From positions 38,067,120-38,131,119 of the forward strand of contig NC_044006.1 in the NCBI RefSeq assembly GCF_900496995.4: a stretch of DNA of 64,000 nucleotides. Direction: 5' to 3'. Below are positions 5,792 through 57,400 of the stretch, piece by piece (the stretch's first letter is position 1; the number at the start of each line of letters is the position of its first letter). A program made the translations under genes and the position numbers. The stretch comes from Aquila chrysaetos chrysaetos (lineage: Eukaryota > Chordata > Aves > Accipitriformes > Accipitridae). Below the pieces are notes generated by a model. That model saw nothing but the letters and a program-made list of their open reading frames with translations. It had not been told where the DNA came from and made no database searches.

Positions 5792-6026
5792 TGTGATGGG
5801 TTGACCCTGGCTGGATGCCAGGTGCCCACCAAAGCTGTTCTATCACTCCCCCTCCTCAGCTGGACAGGGGAGAGAAAATATAACAAAGAGCTTGTGGGTC
5901 GAGATAAGGACAGGAGAGATCACTCACCAATTACCAACATGGGCAAAACAGACTCAGCTTGGGGAAAATTACCCCTGTAACCCCCCCCCCCCCGCTACCA
6001 AAACCTTGCCACACAAAGCCAATACA
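5792..6026. mobile_element. Internally deleted solo LTR of an avian endogenous retrovirus, 5-bp TSD
   Basis: The element starts TGTGATGGGTTGACCCTGG and ends CCAATACA, the TG...CA ends of an LTR, and is flanked on both sides by the 5-bp duplication ACTTC (5787-5791 and 6027-6031). The two ends resemble a bird LTR that, from memory, is normally several hundred bases longer; here about 235 bp remain, so most of the middle is missing. A run of C residues followed by GCTACCAAAACC lies in the right part. No internal retroviral genes are present. The family name is not assigned. Confidence 0.75.
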
Positions 6027-19600: not shown

Positions 19601-20174
19601 GTCTGAAGTCCTCACAACTAAAACTGATGGCAATGAGAGAGATTTGATTAAAGAGATACATCAATGCTTCTGGCTCTGTTTCATACTGCCCACGTAAGAT
19701 TGGTAGATTTTTTTTATCTTAATCTTGAATATGCCTTTTTTTTTTTTCCAAGTAGGAATTACACTCCACTACCATGTCTGGAAAGTAATGCATAGATACA
19801 GAAAAGCTGATGAGGAACTACGTCATATTTACAGTTCTGACAGTGTGAAGGCACAGGGCTATGCATTGAATCACAAGCAGGAAACAACTGACTGAAACCT
19901 CACTAGGTACAGGAATAATCTAAATTGTGTCATGAACTCTGTATTTCCAAACATTTCACTTCTTGATTTTGTTGTATTACTGATTTTTAACATAGTTACA
20001 ATTTTTATACAATCTCACATGGGTTTCCCAGTTTCTTGACCATGTATGCATTAGTATGCAATGATGCAATTCAGTTTATAAGAGAGTGAGAACAAAGCTT
20101 AGGCACATGTAGTGTTACCTAATATTAAAACGTTGAAATATGAAAACTCTTAACATATTCAACTCCTTTATAGA

Positions 20175-21198
20175 ATGACATGGGAGGAAAAATCTCAGGA
20201 CAAATCAAACCCACCTGATTTTGAACTTTCCAGAGATCAGGAAGATCACCTGGAGAAGGTCACAATTGCACCTGAGAACGATGATTCCAAGCACATTTCA
20301 ATTTTTTGCTCTGCATGTCAACAAACAATATATCCAGACCACCTTCTTTATCATAAAAAAACCCACAAAGCCCTAACTTTGCTGGGCTTTGATAGCCCAC
20401 AAACAAAAACTGACAATAAAACACTTTTGGCTCAGAGACAGCAACTAATTTCAAAATTGACCAAGATTCCTAAATATTCTGAGACACAGAGGCAGAAGAT
20501 TGATTATTCATTTGAATTCCTTATGGATAACCACACTCCAACATCATATCATGATCTTGCTAATATTAACAATCCTAGTACTTCTAAGAAAGTAAACAAT
20601 TCTTTAATAAAAGCATTATCAATTTGCCAAGATAAAAATTCCACATGGCAGGGAGACATGGAAGACAGATTTATTGTGCTTGACAACTATGGCAATAAGT
20701 CAGATACATGTTTTCTAGGGTTAGTTGATGGCTTTCACGGTGTAACAGCTGCAGAAACAGTTGCAGCAGAGCTTCCACTTTTATTTCTTGACCAGCTTGC
20801 TCAAACGGATTCCTCCTACAAAAAGAGTAAGGATGAACAGCAAATTCTAGATTCTTTTGCCACAGTAATCAAGGCAGATTACAGGGAAAAAGAGAAGATT
20901 TTCTCTGATAAACCAGGCAATGGCGAGGCCAACAAGACCAATATTTACGAATGGATTCACAAAGCATATGCCAAGTCCTTTTGGAGAATGGATAGACTTT
21001 TACGACTGGGAAGGAATGAGGTTTCCAAAGTTCACTGGAGTGGCTGTTCAGTGGTTACCTGTTTGGTGGAAAGAATCCCCAGCAAAGAGACAGATGGCAC
21101 TGAGGAAGAAGGAAGAAAACATTCTGAAAACAATACACATAGTCCATTAGCCGGGACAGCCGAAGGTGCTGCTGGGTTACTGCACATTGCCAATACAG
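20175..21198 (+). CDS. PP2D1: PP2D1 coding exon 1
   Basis: It encodes residues 1-341 plus one base of codon 342. The ATG at 20175 follows a likely splice acceptor (CTCCTTTATAG ending 20173), so the coding start probably sits at the beginning of a second, mostly coding exon after untranslated sequence. The donor is G|GTATGT at 21199. The frame stays open to 21263, but that is intronic read-through. Confidence 0.88.
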
Positions 21199-24100
21199 GT
21201 ATGTACATTCCACACCAGGATTTTTTTTGCCTAATAAAGAGTGAAAAAAATAAGCTAATCTAGAGATTTGTTGGCAGTAGATAGTTGGAGATAAAAAGCT
21301 GCAATTGCTTTAACTTGACAATGTGAAGGAGACATGATAAATTCCCTTGCAACTGATACTGGCATCAGGCAATACGTATTAAGCTTATCTAATAAGTACC
21401 TTCAACATATTTGAGTTAAAGCAGTGAAGTCAATTTACTAATGCAAAAGACACAGTTAAACATTCTGTAATACTACTCTTACAGAGGTCACTTGTGTAAG
21501 GACAATTTTTTTTTTTTTTTAAATCAAGATGAAGTTTAAAGTGTCATCATTTTAGGGCAGACAATCATAACTCTTCTGATTTTACATCTGATAAATTCCT
21601 TGTGTCAATGACACATGCTCAGGATATTCCTTTTATTAATTTGTTTCATTGAGACTAAGTGACACCACATTTTGCTACCAGCAAACTGAAAACATGATCT
21701 GGTGGGGATCATCTGAATTATTAATTTCTGAACTAGGAATTGGTTATTTACTGTTGTTACAGAAGATCTATTCAGACCTGTTTCCTCATGAAGTAGTGAC
21801 CTGCTTTGCCTTTCTATAGTGTAGAAAATCAGTTACTAATTACAATCAGAAATACTGATACATTCATAATGCTTCTCCACTCAGCCCTGCTGCAGGAAAC
21901 ACTAGACAAAGCTCTTGCAGTTCTTAGGAACTCCAGTCATTGTATCTTCCCACTTGGTGATTTTTGTTACCAGTTAAGTTCTCTTGTGTACAGAAGACAG
22001 GTGTAAGATTACAAGCAAGATACTTGCTTTCCCATGAAGGAGTACACAAGCAGAATTACAAAAAAAAAGCCATTGGGTGAATAGTCTCAAATGGATTTGT
22101 GTCTACGGTTATGTTCTCTGGTGTCTTCCAGTCTCTGCTTGAAGCACATGCCCAGCACTGTAACACTTTTCTATCACTCTCCCTAGCATGAGTAAGGAGC
22201 ATGCTAACACTGCAACTTTCCATCACCAGGGGCACTCATTCCTCCTCAGATGAGTGTATTCACAAAACTTTTAAGACTTCTTCATATTTCTTCACATAAA
22301 ATTTGACTGAAATTAATCAAGAGGGTCAAAGTTCAATAAAGGGAAAACCATTTGAAAGGCTTCATTTTTTTCAGGAGGCAAAAACCCCCAACCCCTAAAA
22401 ACATATTCCACACTTGGAAAAACTAAAAAAGTATTTTTGCTTAACAATAATATGCAATCCTCTGCCAGTCTGAGGAACACTATAAACAAACTTGAACATG
22501 CACTGACACTGAAATAAGTAACTGTGGTCTACCCCCTCCCTTTCCTCCATCTTCCCAGTGCTTGTTGCTATATCCATACTTCCTCTACCTCCAACAAGCA
22601 TTTCTGCTGCGACCAGAACTTTACTGTTACTGGTATCAAAATTGGTAGTTTAGCACTAGCACAGATATTCTTGCAGGAGATGCAGTCACACCTTTAACTG
22701 AATACAGGAGTACTCATATAAAGGTTATAATGTTTTCAGAACTAACAAATGCATTTGTTTTCACCTTATTGGGTAAGAAACCGACTTTTATTACAATGCG
22801 CTTGAGAGGTAGGATGAAGGTAAGAAAATTTGGTAGAGAATTCACCCAACCTAAGTTTTCTGGTTCTAGTTATCTGCCTCCATCCTTCCCTCCCAGATGA
22901 GATTTTCTGCTGGCTGCAATTAAAGATACTGTAAACTCAAGCTCTGCTAATGAGTTAAGGCTTGAAGTTCATCAGAGATACTTCAAGCCTTTTATGATTA
23001 AAGTCCACATTTTTGAACCACTTCTAAATACACATTTATTTAATCTAATACACTCAATTTTCCACCAATTGTATCACATCAAAGATTTGCACAACAAGCT
23101 TCATTTTCCCTCCAGGAATGTGTTCTTACAGAAGTATAGACATGTTCCTTCAGCACCAGGTAAGCAACTGAAGAGGATGGTCAGATACGAGGAGCAGGAG
23201 ATGGTGGCATTGGCCAGCTCTGTCTTCTTCATTTAGTCCCACATTGATAAGTCAGCTAGTTTTTGTTGATTCTTTTGCCCTGTCTCTCATTTGCAGACAA
23301 GCAACTTGCATCCAAAAGCGACAAGATTTTATTCTTTCTTGCAGTCAAATTGTTCCACATGGGTTATATTATGCCCTTTGTTATGCTTACAGCTGGTGGT
23401 CTTACTCAGAGGGTTCAAAGGAAATTTTAGACAATCTTCTAGTTGTCCATGGAAATCAGACGAAGGAGGAGGGAGCAAGCACAAGGAAACATTCACACAA
23501 CATAACTTAAGGCATCTACATTCTATAATCAATAGAACAGGTGTATCCTTCAGTTTGATATTCTGAATCACATTCTAGAGAAACCTGCCTTCACACAGAC
23601 TACACTTAGCTGCCTCCTACACTAGACAATGCCAATACTTTCCAAGAAATACAACTACTGTATAAGCAGTGCCTACTTATAAACACTTTCCAGACATCCG
23701 TGCCCTAGTCTAGCCAGATGGTACTAAAAATACAATATAAATTAACATACTGCAGCCAGATTAGCACCTGGAAAGCTACCATCCAACTCAAGTTCCTTCT
23801 GTAAGACACCACTTTTGCCCTTGTACCAACACATGGGAGCAGACCAGTCACCCCCCCAACACAAAAAATGGTCTTCTCCCACTGTAGCCATAGAGGATCT
23901 CAAACAATACATCACTTTGTTTCAGAGCTGCTTGCCTTTACACTCTACATTCAAGTCTGACAAGACTAGACACCCAGAGTGCTGGAATTTCTAACACTTT
24001 TCATTCTCAGCCTGCAGATTTCAAAAGTGTTGAGGGAAAGGTAAAGTACCTAAAGGAAAGAAGTTAGTCATTGACTTGTCGTGATGACTGTGAGAACTCT

Positions 24101-25946
24101 TGCTCCGTTGGGTCCCTTAACTGAGGACAAGATTTAAGGCATCATGTTAGTAAACTGTAAATTCTACACGATGTCCAAATTATTTTCAGGTACTAGAAAT
24201 TTTATACTGCTAAAAATAGTCTGAACCTGAAACCTCTTGATGAGTTCATTCAGCCATAATAATTTGAAAGCATACACTCTACTAGGAAAAAAAAAAGAAG
24301 AGTATTTGACAAAAATATGCACTCTTGCTTAAAAAACAGTCAAGGTGCAACATTTCTATCAGACTGCACTTTAAGCAGAATGAAATGTCACTTAAGACCC
24401 CTCATAAGAGTTTAGTTGCAGTCAGAAGAATAAGGTTCTGGAATAGTCTTCTGAATAATGGGAGGGGACAAAAACACAGAAAACTGCTGTAAAATAGAAC
24501 CAGATTCATTGATGGACATATTGTTGCCTGTGGCAGTAGATAATTGAACTATGACCTGAGTTTTTTTCCCAGTCCCTAGAAAAAGGCTAACTGCTGATGT
24601 AACAGCAGTATCTTAAAAAAAAATCAATATGCTATAATACAAAATATTACCTTATTTCATTTTTAGGTAATGCACATGCAGTCTTATGTAAGAATGGAAA
24701 GAGTCACTGCCTCTCAAAAGAGCACAGCACTTCTAATGTAAGCGAGAGAAAACGCATACTTCAGAATGGTGGAAACATCAGCACTAATGAACCAGATGGA
24801 TTAGTAGAGGGGTACCTGAGAACTACAAGGGGTCTTGGACATCATGGCAATCCAGTACTGAAAAGATCTGTTATACCTGTACCTCATACCATATCTGTCC
24901 CTATTAATGATAATTGTCAGTTTCTTATTTTAGCTTCTAATGGGCTTTGGGAGGTTTTGGATTACAATGAAGTACTTGCATTAACTCTAACAACATTCAC
25001 TCATTATTTGAGAATGTATGAATGTGTTCAACAAAACGCACCTTCTCCGTATAAGTGTCAGTATTTGATGCCCCTCACTGAAGACAACTTAAATGACTCA
25101 AACGCTGTTAAAGATCTGCAACATGGAATAGAGATACTGTATTCCAATAAAGACATTCTTCTCACTGACTCAAAAGGTAACCTGCAACAAAATAAGCCGA
25201 AATGTTCTAGGAGGAACTATTTGCCAAGTGAAGATGGTGTTCTTAAGGAAACCGATGACCACAAAAATCAAGCTGATCCAGAACCGTCCCTTTTCAGTAA
25301 CAATGAAGTAAATTCACAGAACAGAGAGATAAAACAGTTTGATTCTACCACACAAGGTGGCTCTGAAAAACTGAAACAGTTTGAGGAAAGAAAAGTTTAT
25401 GTATGTAACATCTTTCAGCCACAGCCACAGACTGCAGAGGAAGAAGAAACAGACACTGACACTTTCTGTGCAACAGGTCCAAGTCGCACCCATAAACAGC
25501 TGCAAGAGAATGTACTGGCAATAGGGTTTAAAGACATGAAACAGCTCCCACAAGATATAAAAGCATGCCTATCTCCAAAAGATACAAAAGCATGCCTATC
25601 TAATTATGACTCAGGTCCACAACTGGCACAAAAAATGGACTCCAAGATATTTTGTGACAAACCTGCAAGTTACACTGGTCAAGAACTGCTAAAGACTCTA
25701 GAACCAGTGGGTTCTAAACCAGCACCACAGTTCGAAGAGGACACAAAAACATACCTGTCCAATTGCAAATCACAAACTGCGGGAAGAGGCAGAGTCACCC
25801 CTGAGACACTCTATGACAATGCAGCAAGCTACATTAGTGAACAACTGGTAAAGACTGCATTAGCCGCAGGTTCAAGAGATAATGTTACTATTTTGATTGT
25901 ACTTCTAAATGGATGCGATGAGATACCCAATTACCTCAACATTTAA
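20175..25946 (+). CDS. PP2D1: PP2D1, PP2C-like domain-containing protein (predicted pseudophosphatase), 767 aa
   Basis: The CDS joins 20175-21198 and 24667-25946 across one phase-1 intron. The predicted protein is 767 aa. Residues 45-64 form a C2H2-like finger (C45-x2-C48-x11-H60-x3-H64). The PP2C-like fold spans about 155-760: E163/D164 in GDMEDRF, D185 in DGFHG (canonical DGHGG), G290-C-S292, HIANTGNAHAVLC at 337-349 (canonical GDS is GNA), NGLWEVLD at 433 (canonical DG is NG), and GSRDN with D746/N747. D185 and D746 are kept, but the metal-binding Asp of the DG motif and the GDS Asp are Asn, so catalysis is doubtful. The human protein is about 630 aa (from memory); the extra length is an acidic, repeat-bearing insertion between NGLWEVL and GSRDN. 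PP2D1 lies between KAT2B and RAB5A as in mammals. Its cellular role is poorly known. Confidence 0.9.
21199..24666 (+). other. PP2D1: PP2D1 intron
   Basis: GT at 21199 and AG at 24665-24666 (TTTCATTTTTAG) bound a phase-1 intron. It holds AT-rich sequence with poly(T)/poly(A) tracts and no recognisable gene. Confidence 0.85.
24667..25946 (+). CDS. PP2D1: PP2D1 coding exon 2 (C-terminal half with repeat insertion)
   Basis: The exon completes the split Gly codon (342) and reads without a stop from NAHAVLCKNGK to the TAA at 25944-25946. It carries the NGLWEVLD and GSRDNVTILIVLLNG motifs and, between them, an acidic low-complexity stretch with imperfect repeats. The frame upstream of 24957 is also open and continuous with this exon. 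A later internal start would truncate the PP2C fold. Confidence 0.88.
25485..25880 (+). repeat. PP2D1: Degenerate internal repeats in PP2D1 (copies of the final PP2C helix)
   Basis: Three related segments occur in frame: QLQENVLAIGFKD, then ASYTGQELLKTLEPVGSK, then ASYISEQLVKTALAAGSRD. The last is the ordinary PP2C segment before the DN motif. Between them recur DIKACLS, DTKACLSN and DTKTYLSN. A 9-codon direct repeat (GATATAAAAGCATGCCTATC versus GATACAAAAGCATGCCTATC) starts at 25554 and 25581. Confidence 0.75.
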
Positions 25947-36600: not shown

Positions 36601-37714
36601 ACAGACACAAAATAAATACATGTAACAGTTAGAAATAGGGTAAAAAAAAATGATGCAATGAAATTCAGCTTGTATTGATTTTTGTAAGCTTTGTAGATTG
36701 TTTACATTTCAACAACTGTTCATGTGCTAAGACACACACCAGACCACAGAAAGAGCTTCACATAAATACTACAATGAAACAGACTGATTCATGCAAGCAG
36801 CAACAGGGACTATTGGAGAATATTTATCAATCCATATATTTGTTTAAGTCTGTATGCCGTTGGGTAGTTTTAGGATAAGTCTAAATTTATCCAAGGACGA
36901 ATACAGCTCAAAGAACAAGCAACTTCAACATACAATATAACAGAAGAAATCTGTCAGGGGGGTGGGGGTGGGATAAAAATCTGTTCACAGTTAAACAGAT
37001 TTTTTTTTTTTTTAATTCTAGTAGCCAGCACCTGTTCTGTTTGAAGTCACAAAATGTAAAACCAGCACATTAAATTCTGTGATTACTAACAAAGAAAGGT
37101 ATATCCAGAAATGTAGCAAGTTCTCCCAAATCAAAAGCAAAGCCAGGATGCATAAATGACAACACAACCTTTTCTGATAATGCAGCACTTTGTTTTCATA
37201 GAAACTAAGTTCTTAATTCTTATTAAGCAGTTATTTCGTGCATTAAGCATACAGCACAATTAAAATAGCCACACATCCACCCACAAACAAAATGTAACAT
37301 CAAGCCCAGTTTTCAAAACTATGCAGTTCAAGCACATGTTTGCTTTCTCCACTTGACATGGATGTTTGCTACAGCCTTGTGCCAACTACAACTTCTAGCT
37401 TAGAAAGTTATAGTTCTCAATTAGAGACATAGGGCTCAGATTTGATCCTTGCTGTCAATAACCCATTCTAGAAGTGCCATTACATTCAAGGTTGTCAAGG
37501 GCAAGGACAACAAACTCAACATGAAACAAATTAACAGGATAATTTTCTCACCTCCAATCGTACTTTCTTGAAACTCATGAAACTGTCCTTTTACAAAACG
37601 AAGCACCAAACTTGATTTGCCAACTGCAGACTCTCCTAGAAGTACTAGTTTGAACTGGCAAATTTTATTTCCAGCATTTGGCCCATTGGGTCTTGTTGCT
37701 CCTCGATTAGCCAT
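27513..37714 (-). CDS. RAB5A: RAB5A, early-endosome small GTPase, 215 aa (complete)
   Basis: The CDS joins, in transcript order, 37714-37552, 33869-33718, 32734-32612, 30740-30647 and 27628-27513. All introns are GT-AG and the exons sum to 648 nt, exactly 215 codons plus stop, the vertebrate RAB5A length. RAB5A cycles between GDP and GTP on early endosomes and drives endosome tethering and fusion. Visible motifs are the P-loop GESAVGKS (27-34), switch I STIGA (51-55), WDTAGQE with Q79, NKAD (133-136), ETSAK, and the C-terminal CCSN geranylgeranylation motif. About eight substitutions separate it from the human protein as I remember it, nearly all in the N- and C-terminal tails. ATG at 37714-37712 is used (MANRGATRP). 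The in-frame TTG two codons upstream is not the likely start. The divergent C-tail ([11 protein letters not shown]) fits RAB5A better than RAB5B or RAB5C. Confidence 0.97.
27629..30646 (-). other. RAB5A: RAB5A intron (between coding exons 4 and 5)
   Basis: Bounded by the GTGAGT donor and TTTATAG acceptor. It holds a CR1 3'-end fragment at about 28470-28584 and otherwise AT-rich sequence with no recognised gene. Confidence 0.9.
28470..28584 (+). mobile_element. CR1 LINE 3'-end fragment
   Basis: The words GGTTAGACCAGACCATCT, GAGGTCCTTTCCAAC and a terminal ACGATTCTGTGATA match the conserved 3' end of avian CR1 retrotransposons, which ends in ATTCTRTGA repeats. The copy is 5'-truncated and mutated, in plus orientation inside a RAB5A intron. 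Confidence 0.85.
30647..30740 (-). CDS. RAB5A: RAB5A coding exon 4
   Basis: Thirty-one codons plus one base, [10 protein letters not shown] through NEIFMAI, with the ETSAK nucleotide-binding motif. The acceptor is TTAACTTTCAG| and the donor ATTG|GTGAGT. Confidence 0.97.
30741..32611 (-). other. RAB5A: RAB5A intron (between coding exons 3 and 4)
   Basis: A GT-AG intron of about 1.9 kb, AT-rich throughout. I see no other gene or repeat in it. Confidence 0.9.
32612..32734 (-). CDS. RAB5A: RAB5A coding exon 3
   Basis: Forty-one codons from ESFARAKNW to KRAVDFQ, including the guanine-specificity motif GNKAD. The acceptor is CATTAACAG| and the donor CAG|GTATGT. Both ends are phase 0. Confidence 0.97.
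32735..33717 (-). other. RAB5A: RAB5A intron (between coding exons 2 and 3)
   Basis: A short GT-AG intron of about 1 kb. It contains a plus-orientation CR1 tail at 33512-33612. Confidence 0.9.
33512..33612 (+). mobile_element. CR1 LINE 3'-end fragment
   Basis: CTGATCCAGTGAAAGATGTC, CCCATGGCAGGGGGGTTGGA, CTAGATGACCTTTAA and CCATTCTCTGATTCTACG in order match the CR1 3' end closely. It is a 5'-truncated copy in plus orientation. Confidence 0.92.
33718..33869 (-). CDS. RAB5A: RAB5A coding exon 2
   Basis: It completes codon 55 and runs from [11 protein letters not shown] to YDITNE, with the [12 protein letters not shown] switch II motif. The acceptor is TTTTTTGTAG| and the donor GAG|GTAAGT. Confidence 0.97.
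33870..37551 (-). other. RAB5A: RAB5A intron (between coding exons 1 and 2)
   Basis: A GT-AG phase-1 intron of about 3.7 kb, AT-rich. No other feature was recognised apart from short homopolymers (for example poly(C) near 34112-34121 and poly(T) near 37000-37013). Confidence 0.9.
37552..37714 (-). CDS. RAB5A: RAB5A coding exon 1
   Basis: It encodes residues 1-54 ([10 protein letters not shown] through STIG) plus one base of codon 55. The donor is GGAG|GTGAGAA. It contains the GTP-binding P-loop and the switch I threonine. Confidence 0.97.
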
Positions 37715-37803
37715 GCCCAAATTAGAAAGAAGTCCTTTTTTTCAAGCTCTTGAAACCAAGTTCCAGGATTCAGATCTCAGTGGTGCTTCTGCCAGTTAAC
37801 AAC
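37715..37803 (-). other. RAB5A: RAB5A 5' UTR part of the first coding exon
   Basis: Upstream of the ATG on the minus strand there is a plausible acceptor (CTGTCTTTCACGAACAG|) placing the exon start at about 37803. A second AG (CTGGCAG|) would start it at 37788. Which one is used needs transcript data. Confidence 0.5.
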
Positions 37804-46584: not shown

Positions 46585-47155
46585 AAGCACCAGCCAGCAT
46601 CCAACCAACCTGGCAGCTGCTCAGTTGCTTGCTCTCTCACTCACTCGCCTCCCTGCCACGGGACAGAGAATAGAATAGGAAGAACAAAAGCAAGAAAACT
46701 TGTGGGTCAAGATAAAGACAGTTTAATAGATGAAGGAAAGAGGAGGGGGGAAAGGCAATATGAAGGAAATCACTCACTACCTCCCACAAACAGACCAATG
46801 TCCAACCAGTCTCCAAGCAGCAGCCGTCTTGGAAGCCAGCTCCTTTTTCCTCTACCTGCAATTTTTATTGCTGAGTATGATGCTATGTGATATGGGATAT
46901 CCCTTTTATCAATTTGGCTCAGCTGTCCTGGCTGTGTTCCCCTCCCAAGTTTCTTGCCCACTCCCAGCATACCCTCTGGGTGGGGACAATGACAAAGTGA
47001 GGAAAATGAGAAACCCTTGACCCTGTGCAAGCACTGTTCAGCAGTAGCTGAAGTATTGCTGCGTTATCAACACTGTTTTAGTCACAAATCCAAACGACAT
47101 CACTATACAGGCTGCTATGAAGAAAATTAGCTCCATCCTCGCCAGACCCAGTCCA
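46585..47155 (-). mobile_element. Old, diverged solo LTR related to the younger LTRs downstream
   Basis: Co-linear but diverged matches to the LTRs at 49653 and 56602 include CTTGTGGGTCAAGATAAAGA, GTTTAATAGA, the TCAGCTGTCCTGGCTGTGT block, TTATCAACACTG and GAAGAAAATTAGCTCCATCC. The ends are too degraded to define a target-site duplication. Confidence 0.65.
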
Positions 47156-49490
47156 TACATGGACAGTTTTGGATTAAAAAAAAATGAAAATACTACACTG
47201 TGAAGCTTTAGAATGACTTGAACTTAAATTCAATTTAGAGATTAAATGCTCATGTCATACCTGGCATTTCATGTTTCACTCGATCTACTCAAATAAAGAG
47301 CCACTGATGGAAGGTGTGATCCTAGTCCATTTCTGTTTCCAACTGCAAGCTTACACCTCTTGAGTAGGTTGTGATACCCTATAGCTGCAGGGTGAATTGG
47401 ATCAACCACTGATGTCATGCAAAAATTATTCACTAAAAAACATGGGTTTGCAGTGGCTCAGCTGACTGAGCCAGCTCATCTGTGGCTGCAGACTGACTAG
47501 ATCTGTTGCAGATGAGAGTAAAGCAGTATGAGTTTAGAGAAGACAAAGACCCAAGAACGACCGTCTTGTTTGGCAGTGAAATTTGGTTAGGTGTAATGTG
47601 AAACCACACGCTCAGTTTACACAAGAAGAATGAGAGAAAATACAAAACACAATGCAGCAACGTTCAGAAAAGAACTGTAACATTCCATATGTAGGGATCA
47701 GATATTCTATACTTCTAAAATAAATAAATAAATACTTTCTAAAATCAGAGTAATCGTTCAGATTAGCAAATGTATCTGAAATTCAAGGCTGAATGGGATT
47801 TTTGATGCAGGAATTATATTCATGTGATATACTTGCACTAATAAAAAGGGGGCAAAAGTGATAAAGAATGTATTACTTTCACATGAGAGATTAGAGAATT
47901 TTTCTCTTCAAAATCCTTTGAGCAGACTTAAGATATGTTGCAGTAGGCCATTTTGCTGAAATTGCTAGCAATGCAGTTTTGCTAGAATGCAAATCTCACA
48001 TGCTTTTTGTCTGTCAAGGATATAGGCAGTCCATGTTTTGGATTGTGTGATGGATGCACGCTGACACTTGGATACTACAACAGCAGAGCTACAATGCTGG
48101 TGTGTGGATAGAAAGTGTGTGTTACGGCCATGAGGTTCCTACCGGCTAACTAACTCCCTGGCCACAACACAGAGCTATAGTATGTCTCTCTTGCTTTGCG
48201 AAACTCCCAAATTGTTCATAGCTGGTTGATGCTGACATACGAGGTTAGTAGACAGTAAAGATACACTGTGAATGTGCAAAATAGAGGCAGGAGAGTGTGC
48301 GGCAGTAATCAAATGACTGAGTTCCAGTTATTGTATTTTGGGCTTGACAGGTCTCTCTGAATGTTAGTGGTGAAGATGAGTTTCTTCTGTTGTAGTCTGG
48401 ACAAATAGCTGTTTTAAGAAAAGCTCTGAAATCACCCGGATAGCCCTGTCAGTGATCATGTTTTCATATTTTATGTCATCTTGGGTCGTACATCAAATAC
48501 CAAAAGTGAAATTGTGTTGGATGACATTAACAAAAAAAATTTATGTTAGTGGATCATGATTTCACCAGATGGATTTCTATATATTCTAGCATTTCTCTGC
48601 AGAGTTTAATAATATGGCCTCTTCAGTCTTTTTGTGTTTAAATCTGACTCTAGATGTGTAATAATAAATGAAAGTTGTCTTTAGAGGATGTGCAGAATCT
48701 CTTTATTCTGTTCGAACTTCCCAGATTTGTTTTTATGTGTCCATCGGCTATAATATACTTTTTTCGGTCTTTCTTCTATCTCTGCTTGTGTACATTTTCT
48801 CTGTACATCCATTGGTTGGGTCATATCATAGCATATAGAACATGTGCAGCACATAGAAAGCAGTCATTTTCCATCCGTGAGTGAGTTGAATAAAACCATG
48901 AAAGTAGCCAGGCAGTAACAACAGCAAAGTGTATCAGCATAGCTAACGTCCTTCAACAGTTTCACAAAATTTGCAGCATTTTACATCAGGTTCTCTGGCC
49001 TTCAGAGACCTTAAGGAATATACAAACTTAGTGCTTTGACTGCCATCTATGCCAGCACCATAGTCAGAATGAGAACTGTGTTGCAGAACATGGGGTCTTT
49101 GTGCTTCATAAAGAAAGTAAAATGCAGGGTTTTAGTCAGTTTCCATTCCTCTGTTTTAGCCTGAACAAGACAGAAAAAGGCACTATATTGTGGGAATTGG
49201 ATGTCAGCAAATAGTGGTAACTTTCAAATGACGAGTACTGTTAAGTAAAAAAGTACTGCTGTAGAATGGAATGTTTTGTTCAACTTTTTCCCAAACAGAT
49301 TTCTCTAGACATCTGATTTTTTAACATAGGAGATGACAAATTCATGCTGAATTCAAGAAAGTTTTGGTTTTTTTTCTAAAATGGAGTTCAATTTTTTTTG
49401 TTAATTCATCAGCTTATCTTTAAAATTTACAGATCCTTCCTACCTAGAAATATTCTTCCTGCACACCAACTAACTTTCAATCTGAGAATG

Positions 49491-50450
49491 AAGATGACAC
49501 TGATTCCTAGAATGAGCAGAATTATAGGGAGAAGGGGCAGCTCTTTTGTTGGAGACATCTACATGGAACTTTGAGTTCATATTTTGTATCTCCACCATGA
49601 ACTTAGGAAAACACCTAGAAAATAGAGGTAAGAAACTCTAGCTTTTTACTACTGTCGTGGTTTAACCCCAGCTGGTAACTAAGCACCACACAGCTGCTCA
49701 CTCACTCCCCCCCACCCAGTGGGATGGGGGAGAGAATCGGGGAAAAAAAAGTAAAACTTGTGGGTTGAGATAAGAACGGTTTAATAGAACAGAAAGGAAG
49801 AAAATAATAATGATAGTAATAACAATATTAAAATGACAATAATAATAAAAGAATTGGAATATACAAAACAAGTGATGCACAATGCAATTGCTCACCACCC
49901 GATGCCCAGTCAGTTCCTGAGCAGCAATCCTTCCTCACCCAACTCCCCCCAGTTTATATACTGGGCATGACATCACATGGTATGGAATACCCCTTTGGCC
50001 AGCTTGGGTCAGCTGTCCTGGCTGTGTCCCCTCCCAACTTCTTGTGCCTCTCCAGCCTTCTTGCTGGCTGGGCATGAGAAGCTGAAAAATCCTGGACTTA
50101 GTCTAAACACAAATTAGCAACAACTGAAAACATCAGTGTGTTATCAACGTTCTTCTCATACTGAACCCAAGAGATAACACTATACCAGCTACCAGAAAGA
50201 AAATTAACTCTATCCCAGCTGAAACCAGGACAACTACCCTTTCTCATATTGTATATCCAGCCGTAATATGCTGAGAATGCACTTAGCCTGGCTTTTACCA
50301 GGCTGAATCCTATCTACTTTTAATGCAATGTATATGAAGCAAAAATCTTTCCAAATACATCCACTACTATTTGAGTTTCATTTCTGTGACTTCAAGATTC
50401 ACATTTTTAAGAATGTGGGTTTTTTCTGATAGGAGGTGAAAATATGGATG
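49491..50450 (+). repeat. Tandem duplication, copy 1 (960 bp)
   Basis: This block recurs at 50881-51840 at an offset of exactly 1,390 bp, with no difference found by eye. It contains a complete solo LTR with its target-site duplications, so the duplication is younger than the LTR insertion. Confidence 0.93.
49653..50232 (-). mobile_element. Solo LTR of an avian endogenous retrovirus (copy 1), TSD ACTAC
   Basis: The 580-bp element has TG...CA ends (TGTCGTGGTTTAACC ... AAACCAGGACA) and is flanked by ACTAC on both sides (49648-49652 and 50233-50237). On the minus strand it carries TATATAAA (complement near 49963) and downstream ATTAAA, the order expected of LTR promoter and poly(A) signals, so the element reads on the minus strand. 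A 5-bp TSD is compatible with an ERVL-type or related family. No internal genes remain. Confidence 0.85.
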
Positions 50451-50880
50451 TGCTTCGCACTGGCCCTTCCCCATGCCCCTGAAGAGTCAGAGGATACTGA
50501 GACACAAACGGATCCCTTAAATAGCAACTCTCCCTTTAAATGGGTAATTAAAAATAACCAAAACTGTGGTTAAAATAATTTCTGAAATTGCTTCATTGAT
50601 GGTGGAATTGTTGTGAATCAGGTTAAAAGTTTCTGAAGTTGATAAATGTAACATCTACGTTTCATGAACTGTATGTGAAGAAGCTGTTATCCATCTTAAA
50701 GATGGAACCAAACAGTTGAAACTTAGCAACACTCTCGTTACGTCTGTTGCTGGTTTAGCAAAATTAGGCTGCGCTGTGTTGACCTTATGTTCAGAATATC
50801 AGTATCTGCGGGAGCATACACATGTGTTACAGCCCTAAAACATCCTTATATTTTGTTCTTATCTCTGTGGAATCACACTG
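50451..50880 (+). repeat. 430-bp linker identical to EFHB intron 2 (55183-55612)
   Basis: The sequence from TGCTTCGCACTGGCCCTTCC to GTGGAATCACACTG matches 55183-55612 base for base on reading, in the same orientation. It fills exactly the gap between the two duplicated blocks. Confidence 0.93.
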
Positions 50881-51840
50881 AAGATGACACTGATTCCTAG
50901 AATGAGCAGAATTATAGGGAGAAGGGGCAGCTCTTTTGTTGGAGACATCTACATGGAACTTTGAGTTCATATTTTGTATCTCCACCATGAACTTAGGAAA
51001 ACACCTAGAAAATAGAGGTAAGAAACTCTAGCTTTTTACTACTGTCGTGGTTTAACCCCAGCTGGTAACTAAGCACCACACAGCTGCTCACTCACTCCCC
51101 CCCACCCAGTGGGATGGGGGAGAGAATCGGGGAAAAAAAAGTAAAACTTGTGGGTTGAGATAAGAACGGTTTAATAGAACAGAAAGGAAGAAAATAATAA
51201 TGATAGTAATAACAATATTAAAATGACAATAATAATAAAAGAATTGGAATATACAAAACAAGTGATGCACAATGCAATTGCTCACCACCCGATGCCCAGT
51301 CAGTTCCTGAGCAGCAATCCTTCCTCACCCAACTCCCCCCAGTTTATATACTGGGCATGACATCACATGGTATGGAATACCCCTTTGGCCAGCTTGGGTC
51401 AGCTGTCCTGGCTGTGTCCCCTCCCAACTTCTTGTGCCTCTCCAGCCTTCTTGCTGGCTGGGCATGAGAAGCTGAAAAATCCTGGACTTAGTCTAAACAC
51501 AAATTAGCAACAACTGAAAACATCAGTGTGTTATCAACGTTCTTCTCATACTGAACCCAAGAGATAACACTATACCAGCTACCAGAAAGAAAATTAACTC
51601 TATCCCAGCTGAAACCAGGACAACTACCCTTTCTCATATTGTATATCCAGCCGTAATATGCTGAGAATGCACTTAGCCTGGCTTTTACCAGGCTGAATCC
51701 TATCTACTTTTAATGCAATGTATATGAAGCAAAAATCTTTCCAAATACATCCACTACTATTTGAGTTTCATTTCTGTGACTTCAAGATTCACATTTTTAA
51801 GAATGTGGGTTTTTTCTGATAGGAGGTGAAAATATGGATG
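50881..51840 (+). repeat. Tandem duplication, copy 2 (960 bp)
   Basis: Second copy of 49491-50450, again with the solo LTR and its ACTAC flanks. After 51840 the two copies diverge: this one continues into unique sequence, whereas copy 1 joins the 430-bp linker. Confidence 0.93.
51043..51622 (-). mobile_element. Solo LTR (copy 2, duplicated with flanks), TSD ACTAC
   Basis: Same sequence and same ACTAC flanks as the copy at 49653-50232, shifted by 1,390 bp. It is therefore a product of the segmental duplication and not a separate insertion. Confidence 0.85.
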
Positions 51841-53973
51841 CATTTTTTACAGCTTAATAGTAGAGTTTTTTCTGTATAGGAGGTGAAAGAGATGTACTTT
51901 TCTCTACCTTGTTACTAGCTAGTTTTCTACAGTATCCACAGTAATTTATAATAGAAGCAGCTCCTGCAGATAAAAATGTTTTCCTGCTTTCTCTGGCACC
52001 TGGATGCATCATTTCTGGAAAGCAGCCAAAGAGGCATCTCCCTCTTCCACAAAGAGGCTAGCAAATGAGAGCATTTCTAAGAGCAGGTTTTTGGTCTGAG
52101 GGGGTTTAGGATCTGCTTCTAAGAGATGTGTGAAAAATAGTTAAGAGAAGCATGTCTATTGTTAGTAGGTTTCAAATTGATTTATAAGGACCCACATTTC
52201 TGCTGAAGAAAACAGAGGCGCAAAACAGAGAAGGCTGAGGACTTCTGCTCTGCTTGTTTCTGCAATAGGCATTCTGTTTACATGGCCAGGTCCTATTTTT
52301 CTACCTTTGACACAACCCACTCCATCGGGGCTGAGTGGATTCTTTAAATTAGCAAGTGTGGCCACCTACTGGGGAAAAAAAACAATGTAAAAATAAAAGA
52401 AATAACAGAATGTACATAAATGGTAATACCTTGAGCACAGGTAGCCAGCTAGAAATACAACAAACACAAGAATAAAAATTCAAGTCCCAGTTTCCTGTGC
52501 CCTACTATTACCATATAATTTTTGCGATACTATACTTTGCTCTTCCTCTGTATAAATAGTTCCTTCTTGTTCTGACAGCTTTATCCTTACCCAGTTACTC
52601 CTCTCAATCAGATCAAATTCATCTCTGATTTCTAACACCTGCTGTTTTGTTCAAATCATAGTTTAGCCTTTACTAGGTACAAATTGCACCTGACAGATGA
52701 ATGGATCACAAGGCAAGACGTAACTAATCGTTTTATTTTATGTATTGAACTACCAACAATTATTGCTTTATTTGGCAGGAGCACTCTAAACTTTCAGTAA
52801 CAACAAATATGATTGAAATATGAAATGAACTGAACACGTTAAGAATTTACAAGAGCTTCTTTAATTCCCAAGTGGTCGTGGATGTTCTATATTAGTGGTG
52901 TGGTACAGCCATGTCTACAGCAGAAAAACACACCTACGTTTGAAAAAGGGCACGAGCACGGCCACAGCTAGATAATAGCTGACGATAATATATGTTACCT
53001 GAAGAAGATGGGGCTATTTCCACACGTGCTAGAAGCTAGCTGATCATAGTACTGACATGTACTGTCGATGTGTCGGACAGCCGGAGCAGGTAGTCACGCA
53101 CCCCTACTGCCTGGTGGCCCGGTCACCAGAGAGCAATCGCTGCCCGAGCCTCTCATCTTGCATTTGTGGGAAAGGGTCCTGAGAATTAAATTTTAATTTA
53201 GCTTCCTTCATTTTAAATCCTTATCAAACAAATGTTAGAGCTGAGAATAAAATGGCAGCAGCTGGTAATGTTTGTTAATTAATTACAGTTGAGGTCTGTA
53301 TGTGTATCTAAAATTGGTTTTGCCGTCATAGGTCTATAGAGAATGGAGCAGGGTGTGATTAAATTAGGTGTTTTGCTGGGAAGATGGGGAGAGTTTACTA
53401 AATGTCACCTGAGAGTAAAAGTCTTTGTAAGAGCTGAGGGGCTTTTAAACAGCGGTGGAACTTGTTCAGTCTTACCCACGCTGCTTTCCTGAAATAATCT
53501 GCCTCTGTTTCTAAAAGGCAAATACAGTGGTTTAGATATACGATGTGTTGACTCATTTAAGACAAACAGTAAGAGCGTTCACGTGCCCTGATCTATCGGT
53601 AGTGCTGACAGGCTTCTCTCAGCCACCTCTGTGCCATTGTGTAGACGGGAGTTGCAGTTTTCTCTAGAGGAACAGTCTCAGTACAAAATGTTTTATTAAT
53701 ATGTTTATACATGTGACAACAGTTGTGAAAGGGGCTGTATTTTTTATTAGAATAATCAAAGAATTAAAGTTTGATCAGACTTTTGACCATGTAAGACTTT
53801 CTTTCAACCCAAACAAAACTCAATCCACCCGTCTGAAAGCTGGTGGATTTTCAAGAACTTTAGTAATTGGTCTAGGAAACATACTACCTCTGCAGTTGGA
53901 CCTTAATTATTTTCTTAGATCATGATGGACATGAAATAGCCTGAGTGCATTTTGTTTGCTGGATTTCTCCAGG

Positions 53974-54218
53974 GGGTGCGAGGGACATGGCGGGCGGGGT
54001 GTGAGAGGGGAGGACGGCGGGTGCTGGGTGCGAGGGAGATGGCGGGCGGGGTGTGAGGGGGGAGGACGGCGGGTGCTGGGTGCGAGGGACATGGCGGGCG
54101 GGGTGTGAGAGGGGAGGACGGCGGGTGCTGGGTGCGAGGGAGATGGCGGGCGGGGTGTGAGGGGGGAGGACGGCGGGTGCTGGGTGCGAAGGTCATGGCG
54201 GGCGGGGTGTGAGGGCGG
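53974..54218. repeat. GC-rich minisatellite, 52-bp units in 104-bp higher-order pairs
   Basis: The anchor word GTGCGA recurs at 53976, 54028, 54080, 54132 and 54184, a constant 52-bp period with four full units and a partial fifth. Units 1 and 3 share GACATGG and GAGAGGGG, while units 2 and 4 share GAGATGG and GAGGGGGG. The array therefore grew by duplication of a 104-bp dimer. It ends about 115 bp before the EFHB ATG. Confidence 0.92.
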
Positions 54219-54252
54219 CCGCGCCGCCGGACCCGCACGAGCGCTCCCGTCG

Positions 54253-54270
54253 CTGCCTCCAGGGGGCGCG
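54253..54270 (+). promoter_or_regulatory. CTCF-like motif at the EFHB promoter
   Basis: CTGCCTCCAGGGGGCGCG is close to the CTCF core consensus (CCASYAGRKGGCGC type). A weaker relative, CTCCAGGGGGTGCGA, lies at the left border of the minisatellite (about 53968). Confidence 0.5.
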
Positions 54271-54334
54271 GTGGCGCCGCCCGCTGCCGTTACCAGGCGA
54301 GTGGGGTAAACGGCCGGCGCGGCCCCATGCCGCC

Positions 54335-54400
54335 ATGGCGGGGATGCTGCGGCCCGTCTATGAGGGGAAGTTCACTGACAAGTTTCCTGAGCTGTCGGCC
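54335..54400 (+). CDS. EFHB: EFHB coding exon 1
   Basis: Twenty-two codons, MAGMLRPVYEGKFTDKFPEL then SA, phase 0, donor GCC|GTGAGT. There is no upstream in-frame ATG in the open frame, which extends back to 54209. Confidence 0.85.
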
Positions 54401-57400
54401 GTGAGTGCCTTCGCCGAAGGGGTCCCACCGTGGCCGCGGAGCCGCCCGCCCGCTTTCTGCGCGTTTCTGGGGCCGGGGTCTCGCCGTGGGCTGGGGGAAG
54501 AGGCTGGAGGAGGGGCGATGTGTGGGGCAGGCAGGCGCATTTCGCTTCGGTCCCCCCTCTCTCCCCCAAAAATGTGTGCGGTTCCTTTTTTCCCCCCTTT
54601 TATCAGAACGAGGACAATAAGACAACATCTCGTGCAAGGTGGCAGATCCCAGTTTGGCTTATTGTGCTTATGAGTACAATGGGTTTGGTTATGCCTTACT
54701 TTTTGATTGTATTGTGTAGGCTGGAAAGTTGCATCCCACTGGCGATACGGCTGCGAGTTGCCTCACTGAGGTTTTACCCAGGGTGAGTTGGTTTTTCAGA
54801 TGCTCCTTGTGAAAGTTTTGTAATGATTTCCCATTAGCAATTGTGCTTTGAGACAGGCCTTAAAAAAAAAAAAAAGAAAATCAGTGAAATCTTGGTCACT
54901 TATTCTACATCCCTTCTCTTTAGAAACTACTATTTTTTTTCTGATGTTAGTTTTTGTTACTTGGGATCAGAGAGAATTGCTGGTAGGATTGTAAAACGCT
55001 TCTGGCAGTTCTTTTTCACCATGCAGGTTTTACAAAATTCACCATGTTTGCTTAGATGGGACTAAGTAGAATTGTTTTAGACATTTTTTCTCTGGTAATA
55101 CAATTATAGTGATCATTATTAGGAATTACTATTACTTCTGATGGAGATCCTTCTTCTTTATCAAGGATGCCCCTCAGAATTGTGCTTCGCACTGGCCCTT
55201 CCCCATGCCCCTGAAGAGTCAGAGGATACTGAGACACAAACGGATCCCTTAAATAGCAACTCTCCCTTTAAATGGGTAATTAAAAATAACCAAAACTGTG
55301 GTTAAAATAATTTCTGAAATTGCTTCATTGATGGTGGAATTGTTGTGAATCAGGTTAAAAGTTTCTGAAGTTGATAAATGTAACATCTACGTTTCATGAA
55401 CTGTATGTGAAGAAGCTGTTATCCATCTTAAAGATGGAACCAAACAGTTGAAACTTAGCAACACTCTCGTTACGTCTGTTGCTGGTTTAGCAAAATTAGG
55501 CTGCGCTGTGTTGACCTTATGTTCAGAATATCAGTATCTGCGGGAGCATACACATGTGTTACAGCCCTAAAACATCCTTATATTTTGTTCTTATCTCTGT
55601 GGAATCACACTGAAATGGCTGCAGTACATTTTCTTTCCATTAATATTTTGCAAATATCTGGTGTAAAATTGTTTTTGCTTTGCTTTATATATAGCCCATT
55701 ACTCCAACTAGTGTGCGAAAGTTTCGAAATACAACAAATCCAGCTCCTGGTGTTGAAAGAATATTCTACGGCAGAGCAGATGATCCTGATATTGCAGCTC
55801 ACTTGACACATGGCATAGAGTCACGTTCTTCACTCAGTGTAAGAATGTGACTTGTTTACTTTTGTTTAAGAATGGACTGCTTAAGAATGTCCTTAATAAG
55901 AGCAACTGATTTCTTCATAGTCAGGGATAAAGGTACATAGCTGGGTTATTTACACTGCAGCATTTCACCGCTGTTGTGGATTATCTGAATTCTGAGGTCA
56001 ATTCATAGGATTTAAGTATCATGGTTGAAATAGGAAAACATTTGAAATCCAGTGACTTTTATCTTATCAGTGACTTAACTTTTGCAATGACTGCTGAATT
56101 ACTCATTTCATTTCAACATTTAAGTTAATGAACAGTCTCCTACCCACAAATTTTGCTGCTTTCTTTACTGATTACAGAGGTAAAACCTGCTGAGCTCTTA
56201 GCAAGAGAACTGCTATCTGAGAACGTGCTTAGTTCAGTGTAATTATTATGTATTCTTTCTTATCTCTGGGTTGAAACAGGTTTTGTTAGCTAAAAAGTGA
56301 TGGTTTGGTCAGACTATTTTGTGTGTATTCTTCAGAAATTATTTTTGTAATCTGTAATCAAACAACTGATCATTGGTGATTTTATCACATAATTATTGTT
56401 ACATTCTCTAAAAATAACAGTTGTGTTAGTAAAATATGCTTTTATGATGCATTTCATCAGCTGGGCTTGTAAATTAGTCATTTTCAGTTTTACAAATTAA
56501 GAAGTTGAGGCAAAGAGGAGTTAAGGTCTCAAAAATAAGTCTTCAGGTTGGAACATATAAGTCCTGATATTAGAGGATGTTGAGTAGGACATCTGTTAGG
56601 CTGTCGTGGTTTAACCCCAGCCAGCTACTAAGCACCACACAGCTGCTCACTCACCCCCGCCCCCAGTGGGATGGGGGAGAAAATCGGGAAAAGAAGTAAA
56701 ACTCGTGGGTTGAGATAAGAATGGTTTAATAGAACAGAAAAGAAGAAACTAATAATGATAATGACAACACTAATAAAATGACAACAGCAATAATAAAAGG
56801 ATTGGAATGGACAAATGATGCGCAGTGCAATTGCTCACCACCCGCCGATCGACACCCAGCCAGTCCCCAAGCGGTGATTCCCCCCGCTTCCCCCAGTTTA
56901 TATACTGGGCATGACGTCACATGGTATGGAATACCCCTTTGGCCAGTTTGGGTCAGCTGCCCTGTCTGTGTCCCCTCCCAACTTCTTGTGCCCCTCCAGC
57001 TTTCTCTCTGGCTGGGCATGAGAAGCTGAAAAAATCCTTGACTTTAGTCTAAACATTACTTAGCAACAACTGAAAACATCAGCGTTATCAACATTCTTTG
57101 CATACTGAACTCAAAACATAGCACCATACCACCTACTAGGAAGAAAATTAACTCTATCCCAGCTGAAACCAGGGCATAGGCTTATCCAACATGAAAAAGA
57201 AATCAGGTTTTTGGTGTCCCTCCTCCAAAGTTTTACATTGAATGGATTGATTTGTTTAGCCTGTACTGTCTGTTGAAGACTGTTTCACGCATTATTAATT
57301 AAATATTAACTTGAGGAAGAGCTGGAATCTTAGTGAGTTTGCTAAGCATGGGTTTGGATCAATTGTATTTGCTACTACTTTTTTCAGTATTTCTTTATAT

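Follow-up and report, generated by a model that had tools for sequence, protein, structure and literature searches.

A direct duplication with a linker from EFHB intron 2 in Aquila chrysaetos chrysaetos and its probable origin in one replicative event

Upstream of the gene EFHB, in a stretch of 64,000 nucleotides from Aquila chrysaetos chrysaetos (assembly GCF_900496995.4, contig NC_044006.1, positions 38,067,120 to 38,131,119 of the forward strand), a block of 960 bp is present twice in direct orientation. The 430 bp that separate the two copies are identical to a part of EFHB intron 2. This arrangement is probably a recent germline complex rearrangement that arose in one replication-based repair event, either by fork stalling and template switching or microhomology-mediated break-induced replication (FoSTeS/MMBIR) or by serial replication slippage. 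It would be a miniature of the directly oriented duplication-normal-duplication (DUP-NML-DUP) structure. The whole stretch is called the window here, and positions are counted from its first letter.

The Duplicated Block and Its Linker

Five pieces make up the rearranged region:

49491..50450, + strand: left copy of block A, upstream of EFHB; none of its 960 bp differs from 50881-51840
50451..50880, + strand: linker L, templated insertion; 430 bp, with 0 of 430 differences from 55183-55612, found at 2 genome places
50881..51840, + strand: block A, right copy; equals the left copy, and the left part of A outside its long terminal repeat (LTR) is at two places only
51841..55182, + strand: segment X of 3,342 bp, single-copy in the window; the skipped part with the EFHB start, exons 1-2 and a G-rich minisatellite
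55183..55612, + strand: source of the linker, in EFHB intron 2

The original prediction held that the two blocks are identical and that the linker equals 55183-55612 in the same orientation, and its coordinates are right to the base. All 960 bases of A agree between the copies, as do all 430 bases of L and its source on the same strand. The maximal exact matches extend slightly further, to 962 bp for A (49489-50450 and 50879-51840) and to 434 bp for L (50449-50882 and 55181-55614). The order in the window is A-L-A-X-L, in which A and L are doubled, X is single and everything is direct. All rearranged pieces are within 6.1 kb and in one orientation, and the source of L is 4.7 kb away from L.

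The duplication of A and L is far beyond chance, because three exact direct repeats of at least 40 bp were found in the window (the A pair, the L pair and the minisatellite) and none in 200 kb taken as four 50-kb blocks elsewhere in the same assembly. The scan of these blocks skipped words occurring more than 50 times, the longest of the contigs sampled has 85,456,622 bases, and 200 kb is too small a sample for a genome-wide rate or for ruling out rare errors. Inverted exact repeats of at least 24 bp were not found in the window scan.

The assembly was also searched as a whole (1,233,704,830 bases in 144 contigs). L was found at 2 places, from 2 first-look candidates. The left part of A with its left flank was found at its own place, and the part internal to A at the second copy only. 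For L and for the left flank, the search thus brought up no second locus in unrearranged form. A mobile element was considered as an identity for L and ruled out by its presence at only 2 genome places.

Junctions and Breakpoints

Two junctions were created, the first from the end of A to the start of L and the second from the end of L to the start of A. The short microhomologies reported for them in the original prediction were located:

50449..50450, + strand: junction 1, microhomology TG of 2 bp, also at 51839-51840 and 55181-55182
50879..50882, + strand: junction 2, microhomology TGAA of 4 bp, also at 49489-49492 and 55611-55614

At a single junction, at least 2 bp are expected by chance with P 0.17 and at least 4 bp with P 0.02. 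Among 300,000 random junction sets of similar layout, 0.6% had a larger microhomology of at least 4 bp together with a smaller one of at least 2 bp, and 1.4% had a sum of at least 6 bp, with these joint cut-offs picked after the data were seen. Microhomology at both joins is thus moderately beyond chance. There are no untemplated bases at either join. Extended homology at the breakpoints was also considered and was rejected, as nothing beyond chance was found.

Folding is stronger than in shuffled sequence at both breakpoints of the forward jump, with z of -3.3 around 51840 and -2.2 at the other end. In a second test with a separate set of shuffles, z was -2.5 and -2.1, and among 250 random positions 3.6% reached -2.2 and none reached -3.3. 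Hairpins are therefore moderate at two of the four breakpoints, and they are taken as suggestive since the value around 51840 was weaker with the second set of shuffles. An imperfect direct repeat of about 37 bp flanks the right edge of A (51800-51895; P 0.019 against random window positions). It may be a trace of earlier slippage at this breakpoint.

A Single Replicative Event and Its Alternatives

The ancestral order would have been A-X-L. After copying block A, a nascent strand would lose its template at the end of A, re-anneal through TG 3,342 bp onward, at present-day 55183, and copy 430 bp of EFHB intron 2. It would then lose its template at 55612, use TGAA to re-anneal at the start of A (49489), copy A again and continue. 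This model of one strand and two switches, run from A-X-L, rebuilds the window letter for letter. The exact copies, with their order and orientation, and the two junction microhomologies are seen directly in the sequence, whereas the ancestral A-X-L order, a single event for both switches, its replicative nature and the reality of the allele are inferred.

The layout agrees with DUP-NML-DUP, with A and L doubled, X single between them in the window, and a junction linkage that is all direct. The 2-bp and 4-bp microhomologies, with a joint chance of 0.6-1.4%, agree with FoSTeS/MMBIR. The original prediction called the structure a signature of this mechanism. A templated insertion by template switching does fit and matches DUP-NML-DUP; the word signature is too strong, as a model of two steps gives the same letters and the microhomology is moderate. 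The observation is exact, and the replicative template-switch origin is plausible and preferred, short of proof.

Several results weigh against a replicative origin in one event. The model of two steps accounts for the letters equally well. The 2-bp microhomology alone is ordinary (P 0.17) and is compatible also with end joining. Folding at the two ends of the backward jump is unremarkable (z 0.8 and -0.4; 0.6 and -0.2 in the second test). Local similarity around the joins is at chance level (P 0.68 and 0.87), and because no extended similarity surrounds them, imperfect similarity (microhomeology) of the kind known from human PLP1 is absent here. In an excerpt of the PLP1 report, microhomeology is given for about 32% of join-points (PMC6902434). 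As a mark of FoSTeS/MMBIR, it is supportive and not required.

In the two-step route, A-X-L (4,732 bp) would first be duplicated in tandem with a join at TGAA, and the first copy would then lose X (3,342 bp) by a deletion joined at TG, which results in A-L-A-X-L. The window is rebuilt exactly with the same two junctions, simple mutations suffice, and the loss of an extra EFHB start might have been favoured. This origin is credible but unlikely, since it would take two independent rare events in one place and, judging from the zero differences, within a short time. A single event is favoured for that reason and because its topology is the one described for directly oriented DUP-NML-DUP in the same excerpt (PMC6902434). 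Repair of a double-strand break is another route, in which staggered breaks around A were filled in and L was captured by synthesis-dependent or polymerase-theta end joining, or was copied from EFHB pre-mRNA. The short microhomologies at both joins and the intronic source of L in sense orientation are in keeping with it. It is nevertheless improbable, given that the joins hold no untemplated bases and that a stagger of 960 bp and an insert of 430 bp exceed what is usual for such repair. Tandem copies are able to convert one another, so that an old duplication could possibly have been kept identical through gene conversion. This is extremely improbable here, where L is also identical to a source 4.7 kb away over its whole length and exactly up to the junctions, and where neither the homopolymers nor the AAT runs of A show any change.

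An artefact of assembly or library, in which a chimeric molecule or a wrong graph path doubled A and L, is rather unlikely. The original prediction had named false duplication as an alternative, and the zero base differences between the copies are what it would produce. False duplications make up 2.3% of the Vertebrate Genomes Project (VGP) zebra finch assembly and 0.5% of the VGP hummingbird assembly, according to an excerpt of PMC9516828. Read depth at the haploid level can, by the same excerpt, accompany a true duplication that is allele-specific. This alternative is weakened by the window, which contains no N and no assembly gap between the copies, and by joins of 2 and 4 bp, which seem too short for overlap-based joining. 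Chimeras from missed adapters are inverted, whereas this arrangement is all direct and the scan for inverted repeats found nothing in the window. It also counts against an artefact that neither L nor the left flank turned up a further time in the assembly and that the small 200-kb sample contained no exact repeats of at least 40 bp. An artefact, including one from a chimeric molecule, is less likely than a real allele.

Age of the Allele

The original prediction expected the duplication to be very recent or polymorphic, and zero differences over 1,390 sites agree with this. With the zebra finch rate of 2.0e-9 per site per year given in an excerpt of PMC12047795, the age has a 95% upper limit of about 0.54 million years. 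A slower assumed rate of 1e-9 moves it to about 1.1 million years. With 5e-9 per generation (excerpt of PMC12047795; 4.96e-9 for barn owl in an excerpt of PMC13399160), the upper age is about 216,000 generations. The sequence therefore suggests an allele age below about 0.5-1.1 million years, and quite possibly it is still polymorphic. The apparent age would be too low if gene conversion or polishing of the assembly had been at work.

Long Terminal Repeats

Each copy of A contains a solo LTR:

49653..50232, + strand: solo LTR in left A, 580 bp, with the 5-bp target-site duplication (TSD) ACTAC
51043..51622, + strand: solo LTR in right A, likewise with the TSD ACTAC

The LTR insertion is older than the duplication, because the LTR and its 5-bp TSD are present in both copies of A. 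The family is large. The search with block A gave 5,552 first-look candidates, and of the 40 that were scored, 38 were other LTR copies, 89-92% identical and covering the LTR part. The element is presumably TguLTR5-like, of the TguLTR5 group. Duplications of 5 bp at target sites are described for the LTR elements studied, including TguLTR5d, in an excerpt of PMC4540587. Recombination driven by the LTR was considered and ruled out, with the solo LTR and TSD wholly inside A and no breakpoint within the LTR.

Other LTR sequences are present in the window. Within EFHB, at 56602-57176, there is another solo LTR of this family and orientation, with the 5-bp duplication TAGGC; aligned with the LTR of A, it has 506 matches, 57 mismatches and 29 gap columns. 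Two decayed pieces resembling the LTR of A are found upstream of the duplication at 46636-47138, one with 74% over 96 bp and the other with 68% over 256 bp. A further match to the LTR of A is found at 5830-5911 (72% over 89 bp).

Gene Setting

EFHB is encoded on the + strand, with its ATG at 54335, exon 2 read as 54720-54782 and exon 3 translating from 55695. Exon 3 matches solved chains of an EF-hand domain-containing protein (E 1e-12) and of EF-hand domain-containing family member B (E 3.1e-11). These positions and matches bear out the label of EFHB intron 2 that the original prediction gave to the source of L. Block A is outside EFHB, upstream of its first exon, and only the source of the linker is in intron 2. 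None of the located EFHB exons is altered.

To the left of the duplication are a reading frame with a PP2C domain (24603-25943, + strand, E 1.8e-23) and one of the Ras family (37439-37741, - strand, E 5.8e-10). These are taken to be PP2D1 and RAB5A, in presumed synteny with human. Block A is located between the RAB5A-like gene and EFHB. No Pfam family was found for 20154-21260. A known structured RNA was ruled out, as the window gave no Rfam match at gathering score.

A G-rich 52-bp minisatellite (53974-54215; 4.7 copies, 95% matches) immediately precedes the EFHB start codon. It is inside segment X, the part skipped by the rearrangement. The window has 23 G-quadruplex-type runs, of which this minisatellite contains four, all on the + strand. 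A more detailed scenario can be drawn, in which a segregating bird allele came from one replication event with two kilobase-scale microhomology switches. The forward jump would have passed between hairpin-rich sites over the EFHB start while the fork was stalled by the G-quadruplex-prone minisatellite, and the extra LTR between the RAB5A and EFHB promoters may alter expression. Taken as a whole, this scenario is very doubtful. Stalling at the minisatellite is opposed by the 19 of the 23 runs that are elsewhere in the window without a duplication, and by folding in the hairpin model that is no better than that of shuffles (z +1.5).

Comparison with Known Systems

This locus is a new, small instance of a known rearrangement class and is not a new type of event. 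It is a clean, base-exact, kilobase-scale example from a bird of a class described in human disease loci and tumours. The structure fits one long read or one polymerase chain reaction product and could thus be typed in a population, where the A-L-A form would exceed the plain arrangement by 1,390 bp. It also carries two warnings, that exact A-L-A structures in assemblies need a read check and that identical letters can arise from one or two events. No report of the locus was found in the bird literature surveyed, where no search named EFHB, and absence from print is not claimed.

The closest system is the directly oriented DUP-NML-DUP at human PLP1. In the excerpt of its report, two direct duplications likewise enclose a copy-neutral region, and the junctions link proximal end to distal start and distal end to proximal start, the same as here (PMC6902434). 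The PLP1 structures are attributed there to FoSTeS/MMBIR (PMC6902434). The sizes are very different, with pieces of 960 bp, 3.3 kb and 430 bp here, while in three PLP1 cases the copy-neutral gap ranges from 3,084 to 7,863 kb (PMC6902434). Some PLP1 joins use pairs of Alu elements or long interspersed nuclear elements (LINEs) (PMC6902434), whereas the joins here are without repeats, in a bird genome, with no link to disease.

Two other systems are similar in part. In the cis rDup of BRCA1-deficient tumours, a shorter ectopic segment is likewise found between two longer duplicated copies, and the excerpt of that report offers a provisional model of microhomology-mediated break-induced replication (PMC10482687). 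Those are tumour genomes in which most reciprocal pairs join distant sites (PMC10482687), whereas the insert here is from 3.3 kb away. Fibromelanosis in the chicken, at EDN3, likewise concerns a bird and has two duplicated regions with a single-copy region between them, for which FoSTeS/MMBIR is discussed in an excerpt of its report (PMC3245302). Its segments are larger than 100 kb, are 417 kb apart and have an inverted join (PMC3245302), while the rearrangement upstream of EFHB is about 100 times smaller and direct.
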